This document shows, piece after piece, positions 16,725 through 64,000 of a stretch of 64,000 nucleotides of DNA. Every line of letters begins with the position of its first letter. The first letter of the stretch is position 1. The notes under the pieces are model-generated. The model was given only the letters and a program-made list of their open reading frames with translations, was not told where the DNA came from and made no database searches. Position numbers and translations under genes: made by a program. The DNA comes from Lutraria lutraria (lineage: Eukaryota > Mollusca > Bivalvia > Venerida > Mactridae). The stretch is taken from the NCBI GenBank assembly GCA_964023205.1, contig OZ026844.1, forward strand, positions 24,402,934-24,466,933. The letters are read 5' to 3'.

Positions 16725-18075
16725 AGTTTAGTTACTCCCTGTCTAAACTAGTCCAGGGTTGGTGCCTGTGCAATATCAGCTGGCAAAGAATTCCAAAGTA
16801 TGATGGTAGCTGGGTAAAAGGAAAACTTATAATAGTCACATGAAGTTTGAATGTGTCTAAAGGAAAAGAGGTGCGTGTGTCTAGTAAGCCGGTTTGGTGG
16901 TAGAACATAAGAAGGCATTGGTACAGCAACCATTCCATGAACACTTTTGTAAAATATCAGTAGTCTGGCTTCCGATCTTCTGTTTCCAAGGGAACGCCTC
17001 TTTAACTGTTCTAGTATGTTTAATTGTTATAGGGGGAAATAATCATTTGTAACCCATCGAGCAGCTCTACGCTGTACCATCTCGATTTCATTTATGTTAT
17101 TTGTGTGCGGACTCCACAATGAGCTACAGTACTCAAGTACTGACAAGGATTTTATAAACAAACTCCGTGATGTTTTGTTGCTTGGTGGGGATGTTGCGCT
17201 TAATAAAGTTGAGTGTTTTGCTAGCTGTTGAGGTAACCTGGTTGACATGTTTATTCCAACTGAGGTCTAAAGAAATGTTAACACCAAGGTATTTTGCATC
17301 ACTTACTGTTGCTAGTGTTTGGCCATGTAGGCTGTAAGTGGATTTGTAGGGGTGTTTTGACCTAGTGATGTTTATTGTTGTGCATTTGGATGGGTTGAAT
17401 TCCGTATCCTATTTGTGTTCCCACAGTTGTAACCTGTCTAAGTCCTCTTGTAGAACATGACTGTTGCTGTGAGCTGCTGTTGACTGTGATATATACAGCA
17501 GTGTCATCAGCGAATAACCTGTCCTGTGAAACAATGTTTTCAGGCAGGTCATTTACATATAGAGCAGGAAAATGAGTAGGTAGGGGACAGAGCCCTGTGG
17601 TACACCTGATGTAACAGGTACCTCGTCTGACTTATCACCATTGACTAAGATAGACTGTAGGCGACCTATAAGAAAGGATTTGACCCATTCCAGAGCTTTC
17701 GACCTTAACTGACCGACTGAGTTACTATAAGTAGAATCCAAGATGGCGCCCGTTTGTTTACCTCTAAAGAGACCCCTATACTACTTGCCTGTAGTTAACT
17801 ATTTCTGAAAAAGTTTGGTGACCAAAGGGGCAATTTGTACACTAAGATGTTTTAGGATTGCTGGTTTGAGGTTGTCCGAGCCGCTAGCTTTACCATTCTG
17901 TAAAGTGGATACAAGCTTTTGGACACCGTTTACACTGATGGAGATTTCAGGTATTTTGGGGCAATTGGGACGTGGAGGGATAATTGAACAGGTTTTTTGT
18001 TTTCATAAGACATAGCTGATATAATTCTAAGCGATTTATTGGGGTGAATACAGACTGAAATTGACGATTAAGGGC
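16725..18075 (-). pseudogene. Degraded CR1/Jockey-like non-LTR retrotransposon (reverse transcriptase)
   Basis: Read on the minus strand from high to low coordinates the parts of a non-LTR reverse transcriptase appear in order. LNRQFQSVFT (about 18060) is followed by GVQKLVSTLQNGKASGSDNL (about 17920-17860) and APLVTKLFQK (about 17815). Then come ALEWVKSFL...VPVTSGVPQGSV (17735-17590), the catalytic FADDTAVYI box (about 17515-17485), EFNPSKC and KYLGVNISLDLSWN. The connection domain YCSSLWSPHTNN...VQRRAARWV lies at about 17130-17040 and the C-terminal tail ending SLPADIAQAPTLD at about 16800-16750. Stops and frame changes break it into at least four pieces. About 80 residues including palm motif A (the DFSKAFD region) are missing at about 17740-17815, so it is catalytically dead. 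No endonuclease domain is visible. Confidence 0.88.
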
Positions 18076-21853: not shown

Positions 21854-23090
21854 ACGAGGGTTGTTCAATAAATAATGAATCTGAATGAATACTTGTATCT
21901 CAAGATTCACACATTTTTCAGGTGTCAAAATTCTTGTGTGTAACATGTCACTTTTTATACATACATGCTGAAATTTTGGTTGCGATTCGATGATATCGTT
22001 GGAAAACGTTCTCCTAAATCAATTGAAATACGGGCGTATATCAAAGGGAGGCGTTTCCTTGGAGTATGTCCAATGTATATTGTTTTGCAATTATGTAACA
22101 TTTATGGACATAATGAAGTATATTTTATGACAGTTACACGTTGGTTTAACAGATTTCACGACGGCCATGAGCAGGTACAAGACAACAAACGTAATGGAAG
22201 GCCACCAAGTGCCTTGACCAAAAGAAGCATTAAAATTATTCTAGACCTTTTGCAAGAAGATTCACGACTGACTATCAGTCAGTTATCTAAACATTCAGGG
22301 ATTAATTTGGGAAGTGTTCATTTTATTCTTAAGAAACATCTTAAAGTTAACAAAATTTGTACTCGATGGATACCGCATCTGTTGGATGATGGGAAAAAAC
22401 GCAACCGTGTTTTAAACGCTAAACACTTGTTGAAAATGCTTCCCGCGTACACCACTAGGAAGTTTTTTTAATTTCCTAACGGGGGACAAAACCCTGGTTC
22501 ATTACTTTGAACCGAATACCAAACAAGCGAATTGGGTATTGGCAAGTAGAAACGCACGAAGACCCGTAATCACAAAAAGAACACAATCTATGAAGAAGAT
22601 GATGTACGTTATTTTCTTTACTTATAAAGGTTCGGCGCTTTAGATACCCATTCTAAAGGGTAAATCCGTGACAGCAAAGTTCTGCAAAATGTTGTGCTAA
22701 AAACCTTGATTAGTAGTTCTTAAATCAAAGATCAAGCACTGGCATGAAATACATATACCTGCTACAGGACAATGCCTCACCACATAAGGCAAATATTGTA
22801 GTCTTTTCTCGGAAGGATAAAAAGGTCACGGTTCTTGACCATCCTGCATATTATCCAGACCTGGTCCCGTGTGACTATTCTTTATTTCAGTAATTGAAAT
22901 CTTACCTGGCAGGACGAAGATATAGGTCACACAAAGCCCTTGAAACTGCTGTATTTAAATGCCTTAAGTGTATACAGTACCTCGTTCGGACTACCGGACA
23001 TGCTGTCAGGGGTGAATTAAACCTTTGGAAAAGTGTGTATCATGTAAAGGGTACTTCTTTGAAGGATTGAAATGAACCATTTGTGCATCT
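21854..23090 (+). pseudogene. Dead mariner (DD34D) transposase
   Basis: A mariner-type terminus GAGGGTTGTTCAATAAATAA begins at about 21857. The frame at 21965-22471 has VTRWFNRFHDGHEQVQDNKR-NGRPPSALTK, the mariner DNA-binding and linker signature. It also has a second helix-turn-helix (DSRLTISQLSKHSGINLGSV) and WIPHLLDDGKKRNRV. A frameshift at the T run near 22466 moves it to FLTGDKTLVHYFEP, with the first catalytic Asp, and ARRPVITKRTQSMKKMMYVI. Stops follow, then LLQDNASPHKANIVVF, with the second Asp, and HPAYYPDLVPCDYSLFQ, with the third Asp 34 residues later, then a C-terminal GRRYRSHKALETAVFKCL. All catalytic positions survive, but frameshifts and stops abolish the protein. I found no matching 3' terminal repeat, so the right end is truncated or very diverged. 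Confidence 0.93.
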
Positions 23091-26971: not shown

Positions 26972-27230
26972 TCAAACTAAATTTTCCATCTTGAAGACCC
27001 AAGCATAATTACATGGCATCTGGTTGAAAGGTATTGCAGGTATTGTAAGGGATATACCCTTAGAGGATCCCTTCTCCCATTTGATAGAACTTGGGTACCC
27101 TAAAAGGGTTACCTTGGCATTGGACATAGGAGATGGGCTAGCTAAGTAAAACTGGCCTGGATTTGGCCACTGCAGGACAATTGCATAAACATCATATCCA
27201 CCACCTGTCATTGACTTCTTAGCTGTGTAC
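26972..27230 (-). CDS. FUCA: Fucosidase last coding exon (C-terminal beta-sandwich)
   Basis: The acceptor is TTTACTTAG|GTACAC, completing a Trp codon. The exon encodes [20 protein letters not shown] then [14 protein letters not shown] and [20 protein letters not shown], ending [16 protein letters not shown] (TGA 26974-26972). This corresponds to the C-terminal domain of animal fucosidases, ending within a few residues of the usual length. Confidence 0.96.
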
Positions 27231-30200
27231 CTAAGTAAAAAAAAAATAGAATCAATAAAGTAATTTCCTTCTTATTCATTTTGTATATTGTCAAGAAATA
27301 GGTAGACCAATAAATATCATGATATCAAATAATTATCATTATTTATAACAAACTTATTGTATTTGTAACTACGTCCCACTGTTTTAAAAATACTTGTACA
27401 GACAGTTTAAAAGTACTTCAATTAAAAGGATTGTTCTTTGTTGTCTTGACTGGTAAAAAGACAGTAACACAGAGGGATGGACATCAAGTGAGCATGTGTG
27501 AAAATATGTTAACAAACTCACCAAACATGTTCAGTTTCAGTATCATTCTGAAATCTCCAAGGTATTGTGGAATATATAGCTTCACCATTCACATCGAGCC
27601 ATTTACCTAGACTTAGCAAACGTTCTTGAAATACAGGGATAAGTCGTCCATCATGGGTAGGTCCAACGTTAATCAGTATATTACCACCACAGCTGTAGGA
27701 AAGACAGGAACTGCAGCATTTGTCATCAAACAAGGTTTTCAATAGTTTAAACTGTTTTCCTATTTTTAGTAACAATGACATGAACTTGACCCAAGAAACC
27801 CAAGATACAATCTCAAGCAAGTTCTACATGACAACTTGCTATATACCAAGTTTGGCTGTAATAGGTCAATTTAATTCAAGATAGAAACCAATTGTTTGAC
27901 CCCAATCTAATAACCAGGCTGCATATTCAAATCTTGGAAATTTACAGGCAAAGATTAAACATACAATTACAATAATGCATTATATGAATTTAGATGTACA
28001 ATTAATAATATTTTTTATTATATTATGGTTACCTAATATATATATATATATCTTATATACGGACATGTACAGATGTTTTGTTTCTGCTTCACAAGCCTAG
28101 ATATAGCCAATTCTGTGTAAGTGGCTACCTCCAAATAAAGCTAAAAGGCCACGTTTTGTCTTTCCCACGGATGGCCTATTTTAACAGGTTTGACTGTAAT
28201 TGTTAAAAAAAACTAGAAATGTGTCCGTAGGACAAGCATGCCCCCGCCATATCACACTGGACACAGAATAAGTGTTTGTGTGGCAAATATGTGAATACAA
28301 AATAGAGCAGGTTGCTTGGGAATGCTGCCTATAGTGGGAGGTAAAGATCACCTAAGGGTGGTAAACACACAACTACATGTACTTTCACTATTTCAATATA
28401 AGGAATGAATGTAAATATATAAATGTCCGCTGTGACCTTGACCTTTGAGTAAGCGACACAGGTTTTGCGCATGAGACGTCGTCTTAATATGATGAACATT
28501 TGTGCTAATTTATTTTAAAATCCAATCATGCATGACAAAGTTATGAGCCGGACACGAAGATACGCTTTCACTATATCCATAATAATATGCACAAACTTTG
28601 AACGTCCACTGTGACCTTGACCTTTGAGCAAGTGACACAGTTGATGCGCATGACACGTCGTTTTGATATGATGAACATTTGCGCCAGTATATTTTAAAAT
28701 CCAATCATGCATGACAGAGTTATAAGCCGGACACAAACATATACACATAATGCTTTAAGTGCCGACTGTGACTTGACCTTTGAGTAAGCGACACAGTTGT
28801 TGCTCATGACACATCGTCTTGATATGATGAACATTTGCGCCAGTTTATTTCAAAATCCAATCATGCATGACAGAGTTATAAGCCGGACACAAACATATAC
28901 ATATAATGCTTTAAGTGTCAACTGTGACCTTGACCTTTGAGCAAGCCACACAGTTTTTGCGCATGACAAATCGTGTTGTTATGCTGAACATTTGTGCTAA
29001 ATTATTTCAAAATCCAATTATGCATGACAAAGTTATGAGCCGGACACGGAAATCCGTAACACACACACACACACACACACCCACGCAAACTTTTTTTACT
29101 ATCTTTCCGAGGTTTTCCATTATAAAATGTACCTCACTTTGTTTGCCAAAAACATAGAAATTTAACCGAGGTATACCTCGGTATGTACCTCAGGTCCCCT
29201 AAAAACCCCTTTTTTAGGGGGGAATTGACTGGCAATGACTTATAGACAACTAATTGAGATCTAACCCTAACCCTAAACCCTTGTAAAACCTTGTAAATGG
29301 TACCCTTAAAATTGTCACATAATTTCATGACCAAAAATCTACCTCATCCAGATAGTAATACAAACCCACACACACACACCCACTCATGCACACACCAACG
29401 GACAGGGTAAACCCTATATGCAATCCGCCATTTCATGGCGGGGGCATAAAAATTCCTTCATACCAGAGTACAAGGAGTGTTTCAGCAGAAGTTAAACAAG
29501 TACTCAGTAAATTAAAATAAATACTAGTAGAGAATGAAAATCGGAAAACAATTACACCTAAATGTTTACTAATTATCACAAACTGCACCAGCATAATGTA
29601 CAACAAGAAATCTTACTGTTGGCATGAATTTCATAACACCCCTTGCTTACAATCAATATATCAATAGAGAAAGAAGACTGATATATAGGCACAATACAAC
29701 CAAATAATATTACAATTTTTGCAGGTATACATATTAAATTTTGAGATTTCAGCTTGAAAGAAAAACGTGTTTTTCTCAAATATTGACCAGTTTGGTTCCA
29801 TAGATTAAAATATTCACAAGAATTCTGTTGTTACTGTACAGAAACAATACAAAAGCCATTGTCAGATTATCCAATCAAATTATAACAGATTCAGATTTTC
29901 AATTTGTTCTATTGTTACATAACTATGAATGAGCCTAGAATAAGGTTCCACTACCTGACAGTTTCTGCTAATGTTGCAAGAAGTTCTTCCATGGTTAACA
30001 TATCTGATATGTGAGCATCGCGTCTATAACCCCAGGAACCTTTATCAATTGTCATGGCATTCTCCCACTTCCTCTTCTGTAGGGTTCCTAAAATAGTAGA
30101 ATATACAGTCAAACCTGTGTTAGCAGCCATCTCTAAATAAAGGTCACCCTCTGAAAAAAGGCCAATCATTTTTTTAAAAACTTTCAGTGATTATTTACAA

Positions 30201-36200: not shown

Positions 36201-39200
36201 CCTGTGAGTAATTGCTGAGAAATTGTCCGGACAAAATTTGCCTATTGTATATACTGAATAAAAACAACAAAGGGGTATAACTCAGCGAAAATAAATCCGA
36301 ACGAAAAATGCTTTAAGCATGCACAACTAGACTTACTACTGATCACTTCTGTGAAGTTTCATTGAAATCCTGTAAGTAGTTGCTGAGAAAATCTCCGGAC
36401 AAATTGTGTCTACAGACGCACGGACCGACCGACCGACCGACCGTCAAGCGTGAATCCAATATAGCCCCCATATATTTCATATCTGGGGGTATAATAATAA
36501 GTGTTTGTTATACATTTTATTTTATTCTTAATATCACTCAAGTAACGTCATGTTTGCATACGAGAGTTAACTCCCTTGCAATATACGGACAGTACGGAAT
36601 TTATCATTTCCAACCAGTACATCATGCTGAAATGGATTATTCGAAACCATGGATTATCCGAATGATTTTTGAGGGCCCAATGACATTCGAATAATGGGGG
36701 TTTTACTGTAATATAAATATTAAAAAGAAATAAACAATGTTTTTACAATTTTTAAGAACACTGATGAAACAATATATTTGCAAACCAGGTTATATAGATG
36801 TATTCTTACAAAATTTAACAACCTTTAAATGATAAATACTGAACGGCATATTGTTGTTGTATATATACAGACAAACTAAATTGACTGCCGTAATCTGGTC
36901 GGATGTCGTAAAAGCAGTAAAAATTTGCGATGAAGAAAATGCCACTTTGAAATTATTTATGCATTTTAATTACATTGTTGACTGCATTAGATGATAAAAA
37001 ATACAATAATTTCAACTTCAAATTTTATGACATTTAGCTAGACTGCTTTGTATTACAAAAGCTCATGAGTGATCACCCTTAAAAAGGCAACCTGTCAATA
37101 AACAGTGTGGGGAATCCACGTGACCTTGTGACGTCGCAATGTTATCGTTACAAGCGCGTTTTCTGTCAATTAAACTAGGAAAACATCACGTAAGTGTATT
37201 ATTTTTCGTTTTCTTCTAAAGCCACGTAACTGTTGCAACTCCTTACATAAAGGGCTACCTCCGGTTCCGATTTTTGTCACTGTAGGCCCTCTACTTTTTT
37301 GCTTTTCTTGTCCAAACCGTTTGACAGTGTTATGAAAATGAATGTTATTTTTACAAGAAAATTTTAGAAAACGGTTTGGACAAGAAAAGTGAAAAAGTAG
37401 AGGGCCTTCAGGGACAAAATTCTGAACCAGAGGTAGCCCTTTATGTAAGGAGTTGCAACAGTTATGTGGCTTTAGAAGAAAACGAAAAATAATGCACTTA
37501 CGTGATGTTTTCCTAGTTCGAATGACAGAAAATGCGCATGTAACGATAACATTGTGACGTCACTAGGTCACGTGGATTCCCCACACTGATAAAGGCCACA
37601 TTCTGACTTTCCTGATGTTGGCCTTTGTTCATAGGTTTATCTGTACTATGATATCAGTCATGATGGATTTAAATGGATTCCTGGTGACCCGACAAGCTGC
37701 AAAACTTCATTTTAATTCATGATTTTAATGTATGTAAAAAGTCATTTTCTGTAATTTACAAGAACCTCCTGACCTTTATATTGCAATGTTAAGCCATTTA
37801 TTAGAGAACATACAAACTTAAAATGAAAAACTTTTTGTACAAAGTCTGAAATTCTTTTTTATTAATTTAGGTTTGTAAACTGATCTAAATAAAAGGAACT
37901 GATGTCATTTTTCTTAATGAAATCCATGTTGGGTCTGAATGTGATAATCATAAATTCACCAGGAGGAAGATAAGCCCAGCAATTTTAATATTACATGATC
38001 ATCCAGCTTAGATTGATATCATACAAATTAATCCCACACATCAGTTAAATGTAATTATCATTGCTCAGATTTAAATCCCTCTGGTGAATAGAGAGCCAGA
38101 CATGATGTTAGATCTATTGAAATCTCAGTATGCAAATGTTTATACTTTATGAGGGAGGAAAATATTATTCATAGTTACAACACTTTAGGCATAATAAAAC
38201 TATAAATTGTTTCTTATTACCGACTTTTTATCAGCCTGAGAATGGAATATCGATTTTCGAACTTTTTGTACCTATTCTCAATCTTTCAAAAAAACGCCCC
38301 ATCCTACCTACCCTATTTTTTAACGAGCATGTAACCAGAAAAAAACAAATTTAGGCCTTTTTCTTATTAAAATTGGTAATGAATGTACTCCTTACCTGGA
38401 TTATACCTATCAGAGCATGTAAAATATCCACCATGGTGACATGCGATTCCTTTTCCCCATCTATCATTAGTCACAACAGTATCCTTCACTGGACTGGTAG
38501 ATAAAATAAAATTCAATTATCATTATGTATGATGTAAGAAGTTAAGTATTTCCGATTTCTCTGATATTCTTTCCTTTTCTACCTATGCCACAAATCATGC
38601 TGACTGATGTTTTAATTTCTAACAAAAATGTTTATCTGGTGTTTAACAGCCCATTTAACAGCTATGGTAATTTCAGGGTAAGCCCAGAGGTCAGGGAGAG
38701 AAGATACAGGAGAATCAGCTATTTGTATCCCTACTCTTATTTTGAATACCTAGGTTTTCCTGGTTCTTTATTCTGCCTGGTGTAAAGCTCTGATACACGC
38801 TGCTTTCTTGTGATTTTCTTCACACAGTACTTGGCTCGATAGTAGGAATATGGACACTGAAAATTCGAAAGGCTGCGCCGAGATTTGAACCCATGACCTT
38901 TCTTTCAGTAGTCCAGCATGTTACCACTAGACCACTAATCATCCCTTCTGACAGAAATCAAGGCAGTATCTTAACAAGCGTTCAATCATGGAAAAGACTT
39001 ACAGTGTTCATGGTTACAAGTCAAAAGGATCTTGACTGAACATTTTATCCATAAAAACTGACAAGCTCTAGAAAGATTTGTTTGAATTGAACCTCTTACA
39101 GTCATAGTGACTCTGATATGTTACACATGTGACATAATATTAACTAATGACAACCTAACTAAATGGTAACACTTTATTAAGACTAATTAATCAAATACTG

Positions 39201-42200
39201 AATTTATCTTAAAAAGCATGTCTATCAAAACTGGACTTAGGTTAAACAAGTGAAGGAATACAAATGTATGGAAGGTAATTTAGTATTCTAGTGATTGGAT
39301 TTGATGTAATTTTGATTATATTCAAGAGCACACAATGACTTGGACAAATGCATGTTATAGAGGACTGACTGTAAGCAATGTTATATATATGGGTAGGACA
39401 GCATTATGTATGAAAAATACAGAATACAAACAAATAATGGACAAACATGTAAATCAACAAACAAATAAATGGCCAGACATGTAAATCAACAAACATGTAA
39501 ATCAACAAAACAAATAAATGGACACAAATGTAAATGGACAAACAAATAAATATACAAACATGTAAAGAGACAAACAAACAAATGGACAAACATGTAAATC
39601 AACAAACAAATAAATGGGCATACATGTAAACAGATAAACAAACAAATGGACATACATGTAAATAATGGACATACATGTAAATCAACAAACAAATAAATGG
39701 GCATACATGTAAACAGACAAACAAATAAATGGACAGACATGTAAAGGGACAAACAAATAAATGGACAAACATGTACAGTATATGGAAAAACATAAAAGTG
39801 TTTGAGTTTGTATAGTATTTACACAGTATTAGAGTTGATGGTGAAATGGATGGCAAAAATTGGAAACAAATAGAGTACCTGTCATTATACAACCAGGCTA
39901 AGAAATGTGTAGAATTCCAGTAGACATCACTACCTGCATCTGTACCATCTGACCAGATTATTTCTGGTTTATATTTGTTAACTATCTCATATAGTTCTGG
40001 CATAGTTTTGTGCTTAAAATCAGAGTGATAAATGAACACTATGGAATATTACTCCACAAACATGTACAAAGGTGAACTTAAAACATTGCTAGATTTCTTT
40101 CACATAGTTGTAATATTGATTCTATATATACAATGTAGTAGACATGAGATGAATTTCTTTCAAATATCAATTTTTCTCCCAGATTCAATATCACACAGCC
40201 AGAGTCATATGGCAACTTGTTCAGCTTTTACCAATGTGTAGAACCACCGACCATCTGTCAGCGACCTGGATAGCTTCCTTATATGTGAAATTTTGTCCTG
40301 GGTAGGATTCAAACTCACAGTGGTGAGGAGCTTGTGATTTCTAGCCAGAAACCATAACCACTAGACGACAGAGGTGTCTTGTCGACTACACTAATGGCAT
40401 TCATTTTGCAGACTTATTTAAATCATATAAATAATGAAATAATCTACCTTTGAAATCTTATATTTTTTTAGTTTATTTCTTCTTTTATTATTATCATCAA
40501 CAACACCACTTGCAAAAAGTCATAAACTTACTCTTTTGAGATTGTTTAGCAATTTAATTGATTAGTAAATAAGTTATCAAATGCATAATATTAAATAAGC
40601 ATAAGATATATTACTAACTATCAAAGCATTTTTTTCTAATTAAATGATTGACTAAAAGCACTTTTTCTAATTAATGCAATAATTTATTTTTTAAATTAGC
40701 ACTTGCTAATGCAATGAATGACTTAAAGCACTTTTTCTAGTGAAATAAATTATTTTGAAGAACTACTGATACACAATTACAGATAATTATTATTAACTGT
40801 AATTACATAGCAAGACCTGACTACAGGGTATCTGTCATGTAGATTTTAACAGGACTTAACTTGAATAAAGTTGGTGTTTAGACAAATTCACTCATATTCT
40901 GTATTCCGAAAAGTATAAACAATAAATGTTGACGGCCAAGTCAAGAAATGTGCCAAGAATAAACTAGAAGCCCAAGGGCAACATGTCGAGCCCCTGTTTA
41001 GCCAGCTTGTGATCTTGACCTTTGAACTACAAGTATGGGTGATATTCATGACACATCATTTCATTGAAGTAAACTTTTATACCAATTTATTTAACAAGAG
41101 GGCCACATTGGCCCTTTATCGCTCACCTGAGAACAAAGGCCAATAATCATTGACCAGGTAATATAGTTTCTATCTCGTAAAACGCATTGTTTTATGGCAA
41201 GTCATTTTTAAATAATTCAATGCATAAGGGAGACACAGCCCTGACAAGGTGTATAATGCTCATTTTTGATGTTTGACCTCTAAGTGTGACCTTGACCTTT
41301 GAGCTAGAGACCTGGATTTTGCGCACTGCACACTGCCTCATGGTGTTTAACAATTATGCCAAGTTATCTTAAAAGGTTTCTATGCATAAGGGAGATACAG
41401 CCCGGACAAGGTCTATACTGCTCATTTTTGACGTTTGACCTCTAACTGTGACCTTGACCTTTGAGCTAGAGACCTGGATTTTGCGCACTGCATAATGGAC
41501 AAGGATCCGGACTCACTCACTCACTCACTCACTCTCACTCACTCACTAACTCACTCACTCACTCACTCACTCACTCACTCACTCACTCACACACTCAAAA
41601 ATTAGCTAAATACGCTTTGAAAGTCAAGTTATACCATACATAGATATTTACTATACACAAGTAACAACTACCGGTACATTAAAACCTCACTAGGTAACCA
41701 CTGCATTATCAAGACCATCAGATTATGACAACCATTTCTAGTCAAACTAGTTTTTAGCATTGTCTCAACATCTTATCGTGATTATCAGACCACCTAAATG
41801 TCAGACTATATTTTGGGTCCAAATTTGGTCTTACTACAGAGGTTTCAAAGTACATGTATATAACAAACTAAATTTCTACATCAGACAGACACAATTAAGA
41901 AGCAGGATACATGTACAAGGACGATCAAAAAGTAGTTAATATTGGAGTCTGAAAAATCTATATTAGTTTGGATATTAACTTAATATCCAAACTAATATAG
42001 ATTTTTCAGACTCCAATATAAAGTACTAAAAAAATTAAATTAAATTCCAAACATACTGAAGAAATAAGTCCAACAAGCAATGGAGACTTAGCAATTGATG
42101 AATGTAAAATATGTGAAGAATCATGTATGTTTTAAATTCACCTTCAAAAACACCAAGTTGACCATAAATTTATTTAAAACAGAGAAAAAATCCACATGCC

Positions 42201-45200
42201 TATCGTTATAAAGCCAAGCAAGAAAATCAGTAGAATTCCAGTAAACATCCTTAGCTTCCCAGTCACCATCCGACCATATGACCTCAGGCTTGTACTTGTT
42301 CACTATCTCATATAACTCTGGCATTGCCTTAAACTGAAGCATAAGAAAGTATATGACAACATTTCAGCAGCCAAAAGTGACTTTGAACATACTTATTATC
42401 TTACATCTTAATATATACAGCTTTAAATGATTCTAATAGGAAATCAAGGATCAAAAAGCTAGGCTAAACTTCAGTCATTTTCGCAATTACAATGACACTG
42501 TAAATAAGACTTTTGCATTTTTCAACAAAATGTCCAAGATACTCCAACTACACATCCTATCAATCTAAATAAACTGAATTACACAGTCAAGTACAAACCA
42601 AGGTCAAACAGTTGTACATCAGTTCTATAGAACTTGTTAGTGCTTACAAATACTGTCAAACCTGTGGACAAAGGCCATCCATGGGAAATATGAAATAAGG
42701 TCTTTAAGGGCCAGACAAAATTTTGTTCTATGTAGTCAACAACTGTTTTTAACAGAATGAACTTTCTTCACAGTGTGGTCTGTATCTGGAGGTGGCCCAA
42801 AACACAGGTTTGACTGTTTTTACATATCATATATAAAATGCTACTGTAAGATATGGCGTAAAACTATTAAAGATGCAGTGAGATTACTTCAGATATATCG
42901 AACTAAAACAAATTAATGTAGAACATCCTCCCCATTCCAAATACAAGCCCCCCCCCCCCCCCAATGACAAAATGGTCATGTGGATGCACTTGCCTCTCAA
43001 ATGGTAAATGTCCACTAGAAAATTAAGCTCTACAGGAGGATGTCCTACCCACCATTTCTACTGGTACAACCATTATTTATAGGGAAGCGAATGTCCAGTT
43101 CTCCACAAAACAAAAAGTTATATATCTAATTAAAACTGAACTGACCCCAAAGAACTGAGAAATACCCATATAACAAAATGTAAAGAAATATAACACCAGA
43201 AAATATTCAAAATTTGTTCATTCCATATTTATTTCAGAATTGAAGTAAAACATTTAATTGATAATAAGGAGTAAAAAAAGTTTGTTTCCTGTTTCTACCT
43301 AGCGAATGGTTCACTTTGGTCACAGACATTGAAGTTTCCGTGCCCAACAGGTTTTAATTGGGGATTTTCTGCATTTTGAACTGTGTGGGATGAGGCCAAA
43401 TCAAAAGTGTCTCGACATCACAAACAGTCTAATTAGTTGGACTAAGGTGCTTGTCCATGGAAAAGGTGTGAACATTTGTTTTGTTAGTTGGTGACTTACT
43501 TAAATTGGATCGACACAGATGGTCACTTACATTTGAAAATCTATGTTTGGGACCAAAATACCAGGTTTTTACAACTGCATTTTTCATCTTTACTTTCCAG
43601 TATGTAAAATTTACTTCGTAGGCAAGCAGACAGCATTAAAATATCAAAAAGCCTTCTGCAATTCGGGTTTTCTTCTTGTGTTATATTATTAAGCAATAGT
43701 TCTGTTAACATTTCTAAACATTTTTTCTCGTTTTATGACTTGGTCTAGCAACTATGAGGTCAGGTCTACTGAAATTTCAGACTAACAAGACCACTGGTCT
43801 AGCTGTCAAAAAAGTTAATGTCAAACCCTGTCAATTCATTAACAAGAGGGCCATACGGCCGGCCCTATAACCGCTCACTAAAAAAAAGACCTTTAGAGAA
43901 GAACATTTTTCACTTTCTTACTATATGAGCCTATGTAATGTAAAATCAAGTGAAACCCGAGGCAGGGCCAATTTTCAACCCGAGCCATAATTTGAACGAA
44001 CTTGGTAGAGGTCTGCTAGACAATGCAACATTTGAAATATCTAAGCTCTAGGCCTTGTGATTTCAGACAAAAAGATTTTTAAAATTTTCCTATATTAGTC
44101 TATATAAATCGAGTGAACCCCAGTGCAGGGTCAATGTTGACCCCGGGGCCATAATTTGACCAAATTTGGTAGAGGTCTGCTAGATAATGCTACATCAGAA
44201 ATATCAAAGCTCTAGGCCTTGTGGTTTCGGACAAGAAGATTTTTTAAATTTTCATATATAGGCCTATATAAAACAAGCTTACAGTCAGTATTGCATGCAA
44301 TACAAGTCCCCTGCCAGCACATATCATTGGAATGTTAGCTGCTGTTTATACAGCACCATCTGTCTAGATTTTTTAATGATGACAATTTTGTCTAAATGTG
44401 CGAGCCAGCTTAAGTTATCATCCGGAAACCAAATTTCTATTTTTAGTAACAGTGACCTAGATATTTGACCTATTGACCCCAAATGTAATCCTAGTCCAGG
44501 TTATCCCCTAAGCTATCCCAGGTAGTTATATTAACGGTAGATGCAACTAAAAATCCGGTCGAAACACTTGTCGTTATCCACGCGCGCAGTCGCATTGAAA
44601 AGAATGGACATATAGTAAAACTTTTATTGATTTATGCCGTATCAATACTTATCTTCAGAAAATATTTATGGTATAATGTAATATATAAGTACTTTGAGAT
44701 TAAGCATGCATGAATAATTTTGATGTATCGTCTTGTAATTAGGCTAAATTAATGGGAAAAAGTTTGACATTGCCGATCGAGTATTTTGAAAAATGGTGGA
44801 AAATTGGCGGAAAGACTTGAATAAGTGGTAAATTGGTGCAGAACAGGCGTAAAGACCGATGGATGCATTTGTTCAAAATCAATGTTTTTCAATGATTGAT
44901 ACATTAAAGAATCATCTGCATTGATTTGTAAGGCGATTTTGTTGACAATGTTTCCTCTGTGTAGTTGTGAAATTTCTCTAAAAAGGGGTCGAATTGACAA
45001 CTTTTAAAAAATGTATGCCTCTTACTGCGACATACATGAAGTGGTTTTCCTCACTTCTTATACCAAAAATGATACTGGGAACACTTACTGCACACAATCT
45101 TCTGTTACTTCCAATATTTATTAAATGTTTTGGTGAAAAGATAATGATCATTTAACTAAAACATGTGCACAATGTCGGGCATTTTTTTCACCACGGCGCG

Positions 45201-48200: not shown

Positions 48201-51200
48201 TTATAAATTCAGTTAAATTCAACAATCAATTGATAAACAAAAATCAACATCAGATTTCTAGATTTTCTTCAACACTATACTAACATTGACAATATTATTG
48301 TTGTAATCTTATATCATTAACATACAGTACATGTATACTTTATATCTGATTTGTAACGTGCCAGCAGGAAAATACAGACACTTAGTAAAAATGTATTTAT
48401 GACACAACATCTTAATGCAAAAAAAAAAAACTTTCATTAAGTTGCAGATCATTTACAGATTATATTTCTAGCTTTAAGCCTGTATTTCTATGTATATTGA
48501 TTTAATACTGCACCTTCACGAAATCGTTGGTTTCGAAGTTATTGGACTTGTCCTGAAGGTAGAGTGGGTTATACCATTCAAATAAAGAGTGGTACAATCC
48601 AAATCTAATATCAGTCTTGTTTCTAATGGAATCAGCTAGAGAACCTAGAAAACAAACAGAGATATGATAATATAAGCACACTTGATAGCATTATGTAACA
48701 GAGATATGATAATATAAGCACACTTGATAGCATTATGTAACAGAGATATGATAATATAAGCACACTTGATAGCATTATGTAACAGAGATATGATAATATA
48801 AGCACACTTGATAGCATTATGTAACAGAGATATGATAATATAAGCACACTTGATAGCATTATGTAACAGAGATATGATAATATAAGCACACTTGATAGCA
48901 TTATGTAACAGAGATATGATAATATAAGCACACTTGATAGCATTATGTAACAGAGATATGATAATATAAGCACACTTGATAGCATTATGTAACAGAGATA
49001 TGATAATATAAGCACACTTGATAGCATTATGTAACAGAGATATGATAATATAAGCACACTTGATAGCATTATGTAACAGAGATATGATAATATAAGCACA
49101 CTTGATAGCATTATGTAACAGAGATATGATAATATAAGCACACTTGATAGCATTATGTAACAGAGATATGATAATATAAGCACACTTGATAGCATTATGT
49201 AACAGAGATATGATAATATAAGCACACTTGATAGCATTATGTAACAGAGATATGATAATATAAGCACACTTGATTGCATTATGTAACAGAGATATGATAA
49301 TATAGCACACTTGATAGCATTATGTAACAGAGATATGATAATATAAGCACACTTGATAGCATTATGTAACAGAGATATGATAATATAAGCACACTTGATA
49401 GCATTATGTAACAGAGATATGATAATATAAGCACACTTGATAGCATTATGTTGAACAAGAGGGCCAAGATGGCCCTAGGTCACTCACCTGAGAACAAAGA
49501 CACCATAATTAATGACCATGTAATATGGTTTTCATCTCGTATAACCCGTTTTTACATAGATTTTGATCAAAACCAACTCTCATTTTCACGAATACTGGAT
49601 GTAGGGAAATGTACATTCTGTGTAAATACGATTATGATAATATGTTCAGGATTGGTGAAGAATTGAAGGCGCTAGAGTGTAAACATTTCTATTCAAAGGG
49701 CCCGTAACTCTTAAGTTGTGGTCCGATTACACCCATAACTGAACTTGTCCAAGACCTTAAGGTCATACACATTCATTGAAAATATTATCAGGATTGGTGA
49801 AGAAATGAAGGCGATCGAGTATAAACAAACTCAAATACAGCAAATTTTAAAAGTCGAGTGCCCATTACTCTAGAAGTTCAGGTCCGATTCCACCCATAAT
49901 CAAACTTAGCCGAGACATTGTGGCAATATACATTGTGAGCAAGTTTAATCACGATTTGTTAAGAGCTGCAGAAGCTAGAGTGTAAACAAACTAATTGTGG
50001 ACGTACGACGGACGCCGGACATTCAACGATCCTAATCAGGTGAGCTAATAAATAGATATCAATATTTGGGTGAGTCAAATCAATATTTGGAATAGGGACA
50101 CTGAAAAAGCATCCATAAGAAATTCGAAAGGTGGAGCCAATCTACACATTGTAATAAATCCTGGTACTAAATAGTACCCACGTAAAAAGTTGAAAGTGAG
50201 GTAAACCTTTCTTTTTCTAAAATAATGAAATTGTCTTGTAATCCATATTTCAATGCATTTGTGATTCTAATTAAAGGATGAAAATATAATTAAGACATTC
50301 GAAATTAAATTACTATTCAATGTTCATCTTCAAACAGTTTTCTTCATTATTTTTTTGTATATTCATAAAACAATGGGAACTTCAAGTAGTATGCTATTAT
50401 TTATATTTTCAATAAAAGCTTTATCATTTTATACTCATCCAATTAAAGATATAATACTAATAAATTATGATTAAGATACCTTTAGAATATTTTAGCTAAA
50501 CCAACTTTTCAAAAAGAAAATTGAATGAATTTTATACTTTTCATGATTTTCAGAATGTATCAGGTCTATAACAATTAATCCATCCTGTCATCAGTGTCAT
50601 CCAATCATTAAGTATTTTGGAAAAAGAAAGCAGCGTGTCGCCAATTAACAGCTAAGCAATATAAGCATAAGAATTTACTCAAAATAATCCAGATAAGGTT
50701 TTGAAAGTTTGCTAGTATTTAGAGTACATTAAACAATAACAAGAAACGCGGCAGTGCCACGAAACCAGGTTTTCCAAGGCTTTAATACCACAGTACTCTA
50801 GAATTCTTCGCTAAGGCTTCATCAGTGGTTCAGTTTCCAGTGCTACTAATAAGTTAACATAGACCTTTAACCTACTGGCATAGAATGCAATCCCAAGCTT
50901 GGTTTCTATGTAAGCTACCTCCACACAAAATTTTATCGCAATGTCTAAATCCTTAATTAAGTTATTCTGCAGATTTAGAAACAGTGACCATGCATGACCA
51001 AACTGACCCTAAATACAATTCCAAGCTAAGCTTTCATGCAAGGTTGTTAAATACCCAGTTGAGTCAAGATTAGTCATTCCAAACTTAAGTAATTGACTGG
51101 AAACTGATTTCTATATTTAGTAACAGTGACCTTGACCCTACTGGCCCTTAATTCAATACAAAAGCATGGACTGGATGTAAGCTACCAACACACAAAATTG

Positions 51201-57200: not shown

Positions 57201-57683
57201 GGCATGCGATCGGAACTTCTGCAGCTGGTAACACTATTGTTATGTTCATGTTAACGATACCGACCGAGAATATTCAACCAAGATTTTTTCACAGTTATTT
57301 CCGGTATAACTCAGCAATAATCTCTACCCAGAGCAACTGTTCCTTCTGTACTCTGTGTAGAGATTATACTTGTAGATGACTAAAAGTACTGATATACACT
57401 ATTTCACGTACTCAGCTGACAGATTTTCAAAGATGTTAGTTTTTAAGCAATATGTAATGCAAGAGAAAAAGTTAATTTTTATCTTTCATTTATATCCTAC
57501 ATATTTTTTATCTATCATTTATACCCTACATATTATGATATTAGTCTAATTACATTCAATTCTATGTTATACTTACCAACAAGATCTTTGTTAGGACCGA
57601 CATCCATGGAGTTCCAGGAGAATGAATACTTAGACGGCCAGTTGGTGAAACCTTCATGATGCTTGCTGGTTAACACAACATAC
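26972..57683 (-). CDS. FUCA: Alpha-L-fucosidase, GH29 (5'-partial, multi-exon)
   Basis: This gene encodes a glycoside hydrolase family 29 exo-enzyme that removes alpha-linked L-fucose from glycoproteins, normally in lysosomes or after secretion. Coding exons in transcript order are 57683-57577, 48644-48514, one of 42333-42200 or 40012-39879, 38493-38396, 30087-29955, 27692-27522 and 27230-26972. They join in phase (107+131+134+98+133+171+259 bp), giving 343 residues and a TGA stop. Family landmarks in order are [48 protein letters not shown] (nucleophile Asp), VVTNDRWG...[27 protein letters not shown] (acid/base region), [20 protein letters not shown], and a C-terminal beta-sandwich with WPNPGQFYL. 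It starts at about residue 130 of animal homologues; the signal peptide and the HWG-type N-terminal motif lie beyond 64000. FUCA1 and FUCA2 type cannot be separated here. Confidence 0.95.
27522..27692 (-). CDS. FUCA: Fucosidase exon: [10 protein letters not shown] segment
   Basis: The acceptor is TTTCCTACAG|CTGTGG and the exon reads [20 protein letters not shown] then [20 protein letters not shown] and [17 protein letters not shown](split). GGN.L.N.GP..DG.I is a GH29 hallmark at the end of the barrel. The donor is GTTTG|GTGAGT. The sequence NDT gives a possible N-glycosylation site. Confidence 0.96.
28209..29452. mobile_element. CTAGAAATGTGTCC-family element, four-monomer copy
   Basis: It opens AACTAGAAATGTGTCCGTAG with 'catgcccccgccatatcaca', and closes with the mirror-like GCCATTTCATGGCGGGGGCA-TAAAAA. 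Four internal monomers of about 155-178 bp lie at about 28430, 28608, 28767 and 28922. Each carries TGACCTTGACCTTTGAG (one is worn), 'atgaacatttgcgccagt' and 'ccaatcatgcatgaca', ending 'gccggacac'. An (AC)n tract and an 18-bp palindrome ACCGAGGTATACCTCGGT (about 29165) lie in the distal part. It sits in a fucosidase intron and does not code for protein. Confidence 0.8.
29955..30087 (-). CDS. FUCA: Fucosidase exon: WEN...SWGYRR (acid/base region)
   Basis: The acceptor is TATTTTAG|GAACCC, completing a Gly codon. The exon encodes [20 protein letters not shown] then [23 protein letters not shown] and ends AG|GTAGTG. KWE is at the position of the conserved Glu of animal enzymes (KWEMC), proposed as acid/base or substrate contact, and SWGYRR is a GH29 signature. 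Confidence 0.95.
30449..32196 (+). mobile_element. GAGGGCC...GTGAGCTAAAAA element, CTCACCAG subfamily, long copy
   Basis: The 5' end is AACAAGAGGGCCATGATGGC-CCTATAAATGCTCACCAGGAG. The 3' end is GAGCACATTCGTGCTC (hairpin) then TGGTGAGCTAAAAA. The body has about eight tandem monomers of about 165 bp built from 'aatcaagtgacccccggggc', 'gccaattttgaccctagggc', 'acttggtagaggtccactag' and 'agctctaggccttg'. The number of monomers differs between copies, so arrays expand and shrink within the element. It lies in the large fucosidase intron. Confidence 0.85.
32329..33282 (+). mobile_element. GAGGGCC...GTGAGCTAAAAA element, CTCACCAG subfamily, short copy
   Basis: Ends and monomers are as in the neighbouring 30449-32196 copy, in the same orientation, but with about half the monomers. 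The 3' hairpin is reduced (GAGCACTGGTGAGCTAAAAA). The two copies are separated by only about 130 bp of unrelated sequence, which indicates two insertions or a duplication of the whole element. Confidence 0.85.
33984..34931 (+). mobile_element. GAGGGCC...GTGAGCTAAAAA element nested in the pogo-like element
   Basis: CTCACCAG subfamily, with 5' AACAAGAGGGCCATGATGGC and 3' GAGCACATTCGTGCTCTGGT-GAGCTAAAAA. There are about five monomers. It interrupts the pogo-like element, so it inserted later. Confidence 0.85.
35147..36495. mobile_element. ATACCCCCAG element with seven tandem monomers
   Basis: It is bounded by AATACCCCCAG at the left and CTGGGGGTAT at the right. The interior has seven monomers of about 165 bp beginning near 35285, 35448, 35590, 35762, 35930, 36096 and 36264. 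Each carries 'aacaaagggccataactcag', 'aagcatgcacaactaggctt' and 'gagtagttgctgagaaattg', followed by 'tccggac'. A (GACC)n tract lies at about 36420. The architecture matches the other monomer-filled elements here although the sequence is different. It does not code for protein. Confidence 0.78.
37103..37588. mobile_element. Foldback element with about 215-bp arms inserted in a repeat
   Basis: The ends CAGTGTGGGGAATCCACGTG and CACGTGGATTCCCCACACTG begin arms that stay complementary for about 215 bp, with mismatches and small indels. The centre is an unpaired part of about 50 bp ('gtgttatgaaaatgaatgtt'). ATAAA flanks both sides (37098-37102 and 37589-37593). The insertion splits a TACAGTCAAACCTGT-family repeat (37062-37102 and 37589-37650). 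Transcribed from the fucosidase intron it would make a very long double-stranded hairpin. Confidence 0.88.
38396..38493 (-). CDS. FUCA: Fucosidase exon: NDRWG...CHHGGYF segment
   Basis: The acceptor CTACCAG|TCCAGTG completes the AG-T Ser codon left by exon A or B. The exon encodes [20 protein letters not shown] then [12 protein letters not shown], and ends CCAG|GTAAGG. The NDRWG and CHHGG motifs match animal fucosidases; the paired Cys residues probably form the conserved disulfide. Confidence 0.95.
38637..38945 (-). repeat. tRNA-derived SINE (minus orientation)
   Basis: The reverse complement shows GTGGTCTAGTGGTAACATGC (A box, 38922-38935 region) and GGGTTCAAATCTC (B box, about 38880-38892). 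The body matches the SINE at 7538-7862, including a counterpart of 'ggatacaaatagctgattct' and 'accatagctgttaaatgggc'. It lies in the same orientation as the fucosidase transcript, 144 bp before exon 38493-38396. Confidence 0.82.
39420..39775. repeat. Short-unit minisatellite (about 32-36 bp)
   Basis: Imperfect units contain ACATGTAAATCAACAAACAA followed by ATAAATGGACA. Open frames on the minus strand with repeating [14 protein letters not shown] peptides are a by-product. The array lies in the fucosidase intron about 100 bases after the version B donor. Confidence 0.9.
39879..40012 (-). CDS. FUCA: Fucosidase nucleophile exon, version B (duplicate)
   Basis: The length is 134 bp, exactly as in version A, with the same phases. 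The acceptor is CTGATTTTAAG|CACAAA (weak pyrimidine tract) and the donor GACAG|GTACTC (normal GT). It reads [18 protein letters not shown] then [19 protein letters not shown] and LAWLYND. Of 44 residues 35 match version A; five of the nine differences are consecutive, DWEAK in A against TDAGS in B, right after the nucleophile. Nineteen of the 35 shared residues use different codons, so the duplicate is old and its protein has been conserved. Using A and B together would shift the frame. Confidence 0.92.
40190..40385 (-). repeat. tRNA-derived SINE of a second type
   Basis: The reverse complement has GTCGTCTAGTGGTTATGG (A box, about 40352-40369) and GAGTTTGAATCC (B box, about 40305-40316). It is followed by a body containing 'ctggatagcttc' and 'accgaccatctgtcag' (plus-strand reading). 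The body differs from the SINE at 7538. It lies about 180 bases before the version B exon in the transcript. Confidence 0.7.
41093..41610 (+). mobile_element. GAGGGCC-type element with (CACT)n tract, CTCACCTGA 5' end
   Basis: The 5' end is AACAAGAGGGCCACATTGGC-CCTTTATCGCTCACCTGAG. There are two monomers with 'gtgaccttgacctttgagct' followed by 'agagacctggattttgcgca'. A (CACT)n microsatellite at about 41512-41594 has replaced most of the 3' part, leaving only a weak ATTAGCTAAA end. It lies in the intron between the two alternative fucosidase exons. Confidence 0.7.
41685..41852. mobile_element. Possible pogo-like MITE
   Basis: The left end TACATTAAAACCTCACTAGG and the right end (reverse complement TACTTTGAAACCTCTGTAGT) resemble each other and the other CAGTAAAACCTC-type termini in the window. 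It is about 165 bp and non-coding. The assignment rests on terminal similarity only. Confidence 0.4.
41939..42019. repeat. Perfect 40-bp-arm hairpin between the alternative exons
   Basis: Positions 41939-41978 and 41980-42019 are perfect reverse complements around a single C at 41979. Weaker pairing continues a few bases outward. In the fucosidase pre-mRNA the hairpin forms 180 bases after the GC splice donor of version A and about 1.9 kb before the version B acceptor. It is not part of any repeat family I can see. Confidence 0.95.
42200..42333 (-). CDS. FUCA: Fucosidase nucleophile exon, version A (GC donor)
   Basis: The acceptor CTTATGCTTCAG|TTTAAG is strong. Forty-four codons read [18 protein letters not shown] then [19 protein letters not shown] and LAWLYND. 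The nucleophile Asp is the D of WSDG, and NST is an N-glycosylation sequon. The exon ends in AG, followed by GCATGT, so an in-frame join to the next exon (starting T-CCA-GTG) requires a GC-AG intron. The nearest GT downstream (after AGGCAT) would break the frame. Version A keeps the Trp-Glu after the nucleophile that other animal enzymes have, so it is probably the ancestral form. Confidence 0.93.
42652..42825. repeat. TACAGTCAAACCTGT-family repeat
   Basis: It starts CTGTCAAACCTGTGGACAAA with 'ggccatccatgggaaatatg' and ends with 'aacacaggtttgactgtttt'. It is a full-length copy with both inverted ends. A poly-C run of about 18 bases lies just beyond at about 42946. Confidence 0.65.
44278..46163. 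mobile_element. AGTCCCCTGCC-ended element inserted in the GAGGGCC element
   Basis: It carries AGTCCCCTGCC at about 44304 and the mirror GGCAGGGGACT at 46152-46162. It is flanked by the direct repeat ACAAG (44273-44277 and 46164-46168; possibly AACAAG). The body has tandem monomers with 'aacagtgacctagatatttg', 'acctattgaccctaaatgca' and 'gaagttatcatccggaaac'. It is itself interrupted by the element at 44519-45723. No coding. Confidence 0.75.
44519..45723. mobile_element. CAGGTAGTT-ended transposon with 7-bp target duplication
   Basis: The ends are CAGGTAGTTATATTAACGGT and, reversed, CAGGTAGTTGTATTTAGAGG, both followed by AGATGCAACT, giving an imperfect repeat of about 30 bp. Exact direct repeats GCTATCC flank it (44512-44518 and 45724-45730), and removing it restores 'ctaagctatccatacac' of the host. 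The interior has a local duplication of about 220 bp (45140-45330 resembles 45362-45540: 'gtcgggcatg', 'ttgtcatttctcaatcaatt', 'ataagatagggaa'). No transposase is seen. Superfamily uncertain; CAG-type ends with a 7-8-bp duplication would fit hAT-like. Confidence 0.85.
46197..47739. mobile_element. CCGGTGTARCA foldback element with two internal minisatellites
   Basis: The left end is CCGGTGTAGCAGTCTATTTT; the right end reversed is CCGGTGTAACAGGCCATTCT. Both are followed by related TTCCCC...GGCC...AAAAA...TGGCCTAGGCC sequence, so the inverted repeats are at least 60 bp and imperfect. Inside are a 66-bp minisatellite (about 46280-46800, unit with 'ttctaggccatttcttcccc' and 'aacagtattgcattatgat', worn copies to 46990) and a 34-bp one (about 47050-47600, unit with 'cagaaatatgaacataaaga' and 'cataagtataaact'). 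It does not code. Confidence 0.85.
48514..48644 (-). CDS. FUCA: Fucosidase exon: [12 protein letters not shown] segment
   Basis: The acceptor is TTTGTTTTCTAG|GTTC. The exon continues the split Gly codon and reads [20 protein letters not shown] then [23 protein letters not shown]. The donor is AAG|GTGCAG, a weak match to consensus. The exon ends in phase 0, as needed by both alternative next exons. The acceptor sits only 12 bases from a 42-bp minisatellite. Confidence 0.95.
48657..49449. repeat. 42-bp minisatellite, about 19 nearly identical copies
   Basis: The unit starts GAGATATGATAATATAAGCA and continues CACTTGATAGCATTATGTAACA. Nearly all copies are identical; I see one single-base deletion (about 49304) and one A-to-T change (about 49274). 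Such homogeneity means recent expansion, so length polymorphism is likely. Both long minus-strand open frames (215 and 221 codons) are due to the unit being a multiple of 3 without stops. The array begins 12 bases outside the acceptor of the fucosidase exon at 48644. Confidence 0.97.
49454..50052 (+). mobile_element. GAGGGCC...GTGAGCTAAtAAA element, CTCACCTGA subfamily
   Basis: The 5' end is AACAAGAGGGCCAAGATGGC-CCTAGGTCACTCACCTGAG and the 3' end ATCCTAATCAGGTGAGCTAAT. Internal monomers contain 'gtccgattacacccataact' and 'gctagagtgtaaac'. It directly abuts the 42-bp minisatellite, whose array may have started at the insertion edge. Confidence 0.8.
50748..52038. mobile_element. AACCAGGTTTTCC-ended element with about seven monomers
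   Basis: The left end has 'cgaaaccaggttttccaagg' and the right end 'cactttgtgaaaacctggtt', an inverted pair. Tandem monomers of about 125-150 bp repeat 'tttctatttttagtaacagt', 'gaccttgaccttgatcccac', 'ccaaatacaatcccaggcta' and 'ccaagtttagtcaacattgg'. It lies in a fucosidase intron and does not code for protein. Confidence 0.78.
52040..53880. other. Unassigned intronic sequence
   Basis: Mostly unrecognised. A short octamer tandem (ATGGGTTT and variants) lies at about 52572-52615. I see no exon; the fucosidase intron spans this stretch. Confidence 0.5.
53880..54430. repeat. TACAGTCAAACCTGT-family repeats (one partial, one complete)
   Basis: A partial copy lies at about 53880-53985 ('ccatctgtcaataaaggcca'). 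A complete copy lies at 54249-54430, starting TATAGTCAAACTTGTAACAA with 'ggccaccctttgggatggac' and ending 'ataggtttgtctgta'. The complete copy defines the family length of about 180 bp. Confidence 0.65.
55189..56606 (+). mobile_element. GAGGGCC...GTGAGCTAAAAA element, CTCACATG subfamily, second copy
   Basis: The 5' end is AACAAGAGGGCCAAGATGGC-CCTATATCGCTCACATGAC and the 3' end CACTTTGTGACATGTGAGCT-AAAAA. Over its first 370 bp it is almost identical to 24467-25599. Further on, a block with 'gacaaagtttgatgaagatc' and 'aatctacagtgttaacatgg' is repeated (about 55560-55840 and 55960-56230), so this copy gained an internal duplication the other lacks. Confidence 0.85.
56612..56690 (-). repeat. tRNA-like sequence (SINE head or tRNA relic)
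   Basis: The reverse complement shows TGATTGGCACAGTTGGTAAA (A-box-like, about 56668-56687) and GCGAGTTCGAACCTC (B box, about 56617-56631) about 40 bases apart. No folded tRNA with matching acceptor stem is evident, and the element directly follows the end of the preceding repeat. It may be a truncated SINE. Confidence 0.45.
57577..57683 (-). CDS. FUCA: Fucosidase exon: HHEGF segment
   Basis: The acceptor is CATACAG|G at 57684 and the donor GTTG|GTAAGT at 57576. The exon encodes [20 protein letters not shown] then [14 protein letters not shown]. The HHEGF motif is an invariant part of the GH29 active site, with His residues contacting fucose. The exon begins with the last base of a codon and ends with the first base of a Gly codon. 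It is the most 5' exon I can find; the upstream intron is longer than 6.3 kb. Confidence 0.95.
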
Positions 57684-63370: not shown

Positions 63371-64000
63371 TTATCAGTTAGATTTTACAAGAAAATCTTG
63401 CTCTGTATGAATCATTTTCCCTAAAATTCAATATTACTGAATAGTTTCACAATGCAAGTTAACAATTTGCTAAACCTACAAACAGCTGTTGCAATATTCA
63501 TCATACAGGACAGTTACTATTGGGACAGATATCATTCTACTATATAAGCCAGCAAATATATTGCAGAGAAATTTCTCACAACAAATAAATTTCCTTCAAT
63601 TTTACTCAATTTTCCCTCAATCAGATATAATAGGGTTTGTTGGATAACATAAAAGCATTTTTTAAATATGCTTAAAAGTGGGCTCTTCAAGTCAGTTCCC
63701 TGGTGGTCTTATATATCCATGGTTCAGCTTAGTCCTACAAATTGGACAGTTTGTGACGACAATTAAGATACTTCTCAGTCTTAGAGGATGGCCGTTTCGA
63801 ATTCATTTAAGAAATTGGCAAACCACTTCTGCTGCAGTTGTAATGATCTTAATTTAAAGCAAAGGCATACAATAAAAATGACAATGAAAACGTCTGCAAA
63901 TGTTCTATCTCACCGACCAGAGTTTGACCGAATTATTTTGTGTCCTGTAGGAATAAACTAAGTGCACAAACCTCGCACCGGATGCTTTAAATACTTTCGC
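63371..64000. other. Unassigned sequence at window end
   Basis: No exon is supported. I looked here on the minus strand for the missing N-terminal fucosidase exons (HWG motif region) and found only interrupted frames. Confidence 0.4.

Follow-up and report, generated by a model that had tools for sequence, protein, structure and literature searches.

Exon choice by alternative splicing reportedly switches the substrate specificity of the cytochrome P450 CYP4F3. In coq-2, exons 6a and 6e, both internal and each 134 nt long, are mutually exclusive and are described from Caenorhabditis elegans, helminths, annelids, and molluscs (PMC7434440). The oyster alternative oxidase (AOX) gene has a tandemly duplicated exon 10 with an isoform balance that shifts under stress, which its authors presented as the first stress-adaptive example of its kind among molluscs (PMC5589949), and for ACSL6/ACSL1, mutually exclusive exons are described that exchange a short motif of the fatty-acid gate, where the substrate enters (PMC1543647). 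Here, we describe a 64,000-nucleotide stretch of the genome of the bivalve Lutraria lutraria (contig OZ026844.1 of assembly GCA_964023205.1, positions 24,402,934 to 24,466,933 of the forward strand), referred to below as the window, in which an alpha-L-fucosidase gene contains two versions of the exon that encodes its catalytic nucleophile, and we propose that these two versions, exons A and B, are used in a mutually exclusive manner.

The fucosidase exons resemble the coq-2 pair in that both are 134 nt long and in that one exon is of the widespread type (pan-eukaryotic in coq-2) while the other has changed residues beside the substrates; coq-2 encodes a polyprenyl transferase and its pair is documented by RNA and genetics (PMC7434440), whereas the fucosidase pair is predicted from sequence. 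With oyster AOX, the locus shares a duplicated enzyme exon in which the functional sites are kept, one copy has novel neighboring residues, and the other copy is more conserved, but the AOX exons are terminal, have their own stop codons, are chosen by alternative 3' splicing, and are shown in RNA (PMC5589949). The ACSL6/ACSL1 case differs in being from vertebrates, in exchanging a motif of 26 residues, and in having forms that exclude both exons (PMC1543647). The diversity of mollusc fucosidases otherwise comes from gene duplication, as described for a scallop with eight fucosidase genes, seven of them seen in hepatopancreas (PMC5159873). In the literature that we searched, which leaves subscription journals mostly outside its coverage, we found no fucosidase with a mutually exclusive catalytic exon. 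A preliminary description of this DNA had stated that no comparable case was known, and this holds for fucosidases within that literature; it does not hold for enzymes at large, since active-site cassettes are described in others, including those of molluscs (coq-2, PMC7434440; oyster AOX, PMC5589949). With the coq-2, oyster AOX, and ACSL6 precedents, this kind of exon pair is established, and the fucosidase pair adds to them.

Two versions of the nucleophile exon

Exon A (42200..42333) and exon B (39879..40012) lie on the minus strand of the window, are each 134 bp long, and are separated by an intron of 2,187 nt. Both are entered in phase 0 and left after the second base of a codon (..GAT AG|T in exon A and ..GAC AG|T in exon B), and the exon that starts at 38493 completes the split codon of either one. 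When A alone or B alone is included, a single open frame of 353 residues runs through the exons in the window. Joining A to B gives ten residues beyond the last whole codon of A and then a stop, and skipping both exons gives eight residues and then a stop. Both of these products end early, as had been predicted from the exon length, so the arrangement is best read as one of mutually exclusive use. The exon boundaries given in the preliminary description (48514, 42333, 42200, 40012, 39879, and 38493), together with the lengths and phases, were reproduced on recount.

Each exon matches PF01120 above the cut-off of 25.2 bits, with 42.6 bits for exon A (the standard type) and 37.2 bits for exon B (the variant type), and a tblastn comparison of the two gives an E value of 4e-23. 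Their 44 whole codons comprise 16 that are identical, 19 that differ silently, and 9 that change the residue, leaving 35 of 44 residues equal, and the counts of shared residues and silent codons agree with those reported earlier. At the nucleotide level, 39 of 134 bases differ, distributed as 9, 6, and 24 over the first, second, and third codon positions. When 39 substitutions were placed at random on exon A in 20,000 trials, at most 27 of 44 residues were kept and 16% of the trials were free of stop codons, so the 35 residues actually kept show that the likeness of A and B is not due to chance. A search of the window for a third copy of this exon returned only weak matches, the best of which had an E value of 0.38 and contained a stop codon (tblastn).

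In a Nei-Gojobori (NG86) comparison of the two exons, pS was 0.95, a value from which no finite dS can be computed, and dN was 0.17; the upper bootstrap bound on dN/dS was 0.095, a rough value given the 44 codons. Saturated silent sites next to this low dN point to an old duplication whose two copies together are under protein-level selection, in agreement with the earlier suggestion that exon B has long been selected at the protein level.

Mutually exclusive exon pairs have been characterized by similar length, compatible splice sites and equal frame, sequence similarity, and a position as adjacent internal exons (PMC3228551). Exons A and B have identical lengths (134 versus 134 bp), AG acceptors, U2-compatible donors (GC in A and GT in B), the same frame, and 35/44 residues in common, and the gene model places them next to each other with further exons on either side. 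Among the other exons of the fly X chromosome, 0.56% are reported to share the features of mutually exclusive pairs, and according to the same source, exons with such features are rarely anything else (PMC3228551). Our preferred explanation, which we regard as moderately likely, is that the nucleophile exon of an animal GH29 alpha-L-fucosidase gene underwent tandem duplication long ago and that the two products, A and B, form a mutually exclusive pair. Equal length and phase, homology, the frame lock, and splice ends that fit both sides for both exons argue for it. The cassette proposed in the preliminary description is borne out in part, as a duplicated, frame-incompatible pair in a fucosidase gene with a swap adjoining the nucleophile; transcription of both exons and their exclusive splicing stand as predictions.

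Gene model and fucosidase identity

The gene model was built by tblastn with human FUCA1 and FUCA2 sequences and by reading of splice sites. In transcript order on the minus strand, it begins with the end of an upstream exon that is cut by the window edge (63972..64000; placed by frame and likeness to FUCA2, with a tblastn E value of 8.6 on its own), followed by an exon at 57577..57683 and by the upstream exon shared by both isoforms (48514..48644; 131 bp, with donor AAG|gtgcag and a PF01120 match). After A and B come the shared downstream exon (38396..38493; 98 bp), which completes the split codon and carries the equivalent of the acid/base Asp in TCSDRYNP, the exon with the equivalent of FUCA1 Glu289 (29955..30087; found by profile search, tblastn, and alignment), an exon at 27522..27692, and the last coding exon (26973..27230), which encodes the C-terminal domain PF16757 and is followed by the stop codon. 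The exons at 57577..57683 and 27522..27692 were each identified by profile search, tblastn, and the gene model, and the N-terminal exons lie outside the window. Nineteen copies of a 42-bp unit (48655-49451) stop about 10 bases short of the acceptor at the shared upstream exon, and this array could affect the splicing of that exon.

PF01120 matched six of the seven pieces of the gene and PF16757 matched the last coding exon; NCBIfam had no match for either isoform at an E value of 0.001. In a search of PDB, residues 2-350 of isoform A matched human FUCA1, the tissue alpha-L-fucosidase, with an E value of 8.6e-140, and the identity to isoform A is 56% for FUCA1 and 58% for FUCA2. The nucleophile Asp, the acid/base Asp, and the supporting Glu are present in both isoforms, where they align with FUCA1 Asp225, Asp276, and Glu289. 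With the family domains and the catalytic residues of GH29 subfamily A both found, we assign the gene to the animal GH29 alpha-L-fucosidases.

The loop beside the nucleophile

In human FUCA1, Asp225 is the nucleophile and Asp276 the acid/base, and Glu289 supports the acid/base loop (PMC9548408). The equivalents of the latter two residues sit in exons common to both isoforms, and the exchangeable exon supplies the nucleophile Asp. As had been noted before, both translations keep IWSDG, which contains this Asp in WSDG, and the NST sequon, and five consecutive residues beside the nucleophile change from DWEAK in exon A to TDAGS in exon B. These five residues align with FUCA1 residues 227-231 (EWECP), a putative placement of the loop that uses the human residue numbers, and the sequon of both exons aligns with FUCA1 Asn236. 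A run of five among the nine changes has a P value of 0.004 under random placement, which indicates that change was focused on the loop. Outside the loop, exon B matches human FUCA1 at 30/39 positions and exon A at 29/39; since B is as near to FUCA1 as A is there, it is not decaying in general.

The swapped residues overlap a conserved motif that the preliminary description overlooked. From the nucleophile onward, D-G-[DE]-W is found in human FUCA1, in exon A, and in 80 of 80 aligned prokaryotic relatives (the best 80 of at least 566, ranked by likeness to isoform A, which itself bears the motif; the other 486 are outside the count), whereas exon B reads D-G-T-D. This rim motif is an empirical one, defined in the present analysis and having no published definition, and the relatives were found through two patterns located elsewhere in the protein, VLT[ST]KHHE and Y[HY]SL[FL]EW[YF], which together gave at least 593 stretches. 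Among the structures compared, 5 of 50 PDB matches, the Trp is kept in the T. maritima fucosidase (1hl8 and 2zwy, D-M-G-W), in its mutant 2wsp (N-M...), and in 7xsg (D-G-G-W). A scan of prokaryotic contigs with a pattern from the A/B alignment gave 45 matches, none of them a relative. We dismissed as coincidence a likeness of exon B to WNDGSDRG in PDB 5k9h (E value of 0.28), which is preceded there by VWFDGANGG, presumably the nucleophile strand of that protein.

Human FUCA2 presumably reads D-G-D-G from the nucleophile and DGGAP at the swapped positions. Human FUCA1 and FUCA2 share family and catalytic residues with the gene described here, and EWECP and DGGAP would make them a Trp-plus and a Trp-minus rim, respectively. 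These two kinds of rim belong to two genes in humans and to one gene, by exon choice, in the window, and TDAGS is not the FUCA2 sequence. We found no published role for a Trp at the third position after the nucleophile in the GH29 literature. An aromatic subsite beside the active site of the bacterial fucosidase AlfC is described as accommodating GlcNAc in 1,6-linkage (PMC7718225), and its relation to the rim Trp considered here is one of analogy only.

With its catalytic residues kept, isoform B probably retains enzyme activity and has a modified aglycone rim; a non-cleaving form, the main rival, is less likely. In the latter case, isoform B would be made but, with the rim Trp and acidic residue gone, would bind fucose or modulate the tetramer as a partner of isoform A. 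We consider this unlikely, although it would fit the presence of the replaced motif in all 80 aligned relatives, and FUCA2 is presumably also Trp-minus. It would also fit the very limited evidence described for FUCA2 activity (PMC12427801) and the organization of FUCA1, a homotetramer in which Asn236, a position within this exon, carries a glycan close to where two catalytic domains meet (PMC9548408). The nucleophile, acid/base Asp, and supporting Glu are nevertheless all retained in isoform B, which outside the loop is conserved to the same degree as isoform A.

Splice sites and a possible basis for exclusive use

The 5' splice site of exon A (42191..42202, minus strand) reads TAG|gcatgt, a GC donor that had been overlooked, and that of exon B (39870..39881, minus strand) reads CAG|gtactc; all seven donors of the gene in the window other than that of A are GT. 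In a simple estimate of duplex formation with U1, the donor of A had the weakest pairing of the eight (-2.9 kcal/mol), compared to -7.1 kcal/mol for B and -5.3 to -11.5 kcal/mol for the remaining six. The acceptor of B ends in AAG, not CAG or TAG, and by eye, both exons have U2-type ends. A GT donor four bases downstream of the GC site was rejected for exon A: it gives an exon of 138 bp, after which the next exon is read in a frame that begins SSEGYCCD and stops. Because this downstream GT breaks the frame, exon A needs the GC donor.

A stop codon upstream of several exon junctions is expected to cause transcript decay, and since the stops in the A-B and skipped products are both so placed, decay of such transcripts is expected. 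Crowding of the donor and branch point is ruled out by the length of the A-B intron, which is far too long for it, so that regulation plus decay remain. GC donors, which make up <1% of donors, are functional and enriched in alternatively spliced genes (PMC2490688), and in C. elegans let-2, a GC donor is needed for developmental regulation, which is abolished by GT replacement (PMC2490688, PMC7242645). In both let-2 and the fucosidase gene, a GC 5' splice site adjoins an alternative exon; however, in let-2 the site lies after exon 10 and its requirement has been demonstrated, while the site described here follows the upstream exon, A, and its regulatory role is proposed. By this analogy, we tentatively suggest that the weak GC donor of A would be the likeliest handle for regulation. 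The A-B intron also contains a near-perfect inverted repeat (41931..42027, minus strand; 48-nt arms, 96% complementary, 173 nt past the A donor, -58.3 kcal/mol, z of -15.5), which has no other copy in the window and may be a mobile-element relic or may influence site choice.

It is also conceivable, though improbable, that only one exon is in use now, either because a weakened donor is leading to the loss of A or because B is at most rarely included, and that the pair is a relic seen at an early stage. The GC donor of A, with the poorest U1 pairing in the gene, and the AAG acceptor of B would be in keeping with such a history. In contrast, both frames are intact and the silent sites saturated, so both exons were selected until recently at least, and GC donors are a functional class despite their rarity, enriched in genes with alternative splicing (PMC2490688).

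The 200-bp flanks of A and B are 33% identical on each side, so that homology is not detectable there, and no other exon of the gene is duplicated within the 64-kb window (tblastn). Saturated silent sites and unrelated flanks rule out exon B as an allelic or assembly copy, and the lack of any other repeated exon rules out a tandem gene copy. It is therefore highly improbable that B comes from another fucosidase gene or an assembly error and that no single gene has both exons, which the preliminary description had named as a way to overturn its proposal: mollusc genomes are rich in fucosidase genes (eight in a scallop; PMC5159873) and the window is rich in repeats, but the phases of B fit the neighbors of A exactly.

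Other features of the window

A tandem array with a 21-bp unit occupies 234-1740, with about 69 copies over 234-1670. Three open frames on the minus strand (16748-17631) resemble reverse-transcriptase remnants by eye, with no Pfam match at an E value of 0.01, and a 175-residue open frame on the plus strand (21944-22471) has helix-turn-helix matches, including one to Mos1-type HTH_48 below its cut-off, and looks like a piece of a mariner transposase. Two minus-strand segments with tRNA-like box motifs, at about 38870-38945 and about 40290-40385, appear by eye to be tRNA-derived short interspersed elements; ARAGORN found no tRNA in the window, and Rfam had no match in it at the gathering threshold.

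Discussion

The mechanism that we propose starts from a tandem duplication, long ago, of the nucleophile-bearing exon, after which the donor at 48514 would, with high probability, be joined to either A or B. Both isoforms are likely made, the donor of A would be the regulated step, and the wrong products (A joined to B or both skipped) would be removed by nonsense-mediated decay. We judge it evenly balanced whether isoform A is then the ordinary fucosidase and isoform B one that differs in its aglycone rim or in the linkages it prefers.

Several points weigh against mutually exclusive use of two functional exons. Expression and exclusivity are predictions from sequence, the dN/dS estimate is rough because it draws on 44 codons, and no relative of exon B was found in the prokaryotic contigs and PDB entries searched. 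In addition, the GC donor of A may reflect decay rather than regulation, and B, lacking a motif that is otherwise invariant in the sample, could have lost activity. It is possible, if somewhat doubtful, that one gene alternates, through exon choice at a weak GC donor, between the standard fucosidase and a variant lacking a rim motif that is retained elsewhere from bacteria to human FUCA1, the variant having a second substrate or linkage specificity or binding fucose without cleaving it.

If mutually exclusive use of A and B is correct, the fucosidase pair joins coq-2 and oyster AOX as enzyme exons that were duplicated and retained for alternative use, and splicing would achieve in this bivalve what may be divided between two genes, FUCA1 and FUCA2, in vertebrates. 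The gene would then encode a glycosidase in which splicing selects the catalytic exon, so that specificity could be adjusted to tissue or food with no additional gene. Together, the isoforms would also constitute a natural swap experiment on the residues adjoining the GH29 nucleophile, one that bears on linkage choice in this family and on the question of activity in Trp-minus forms, presumably including FUCA2.

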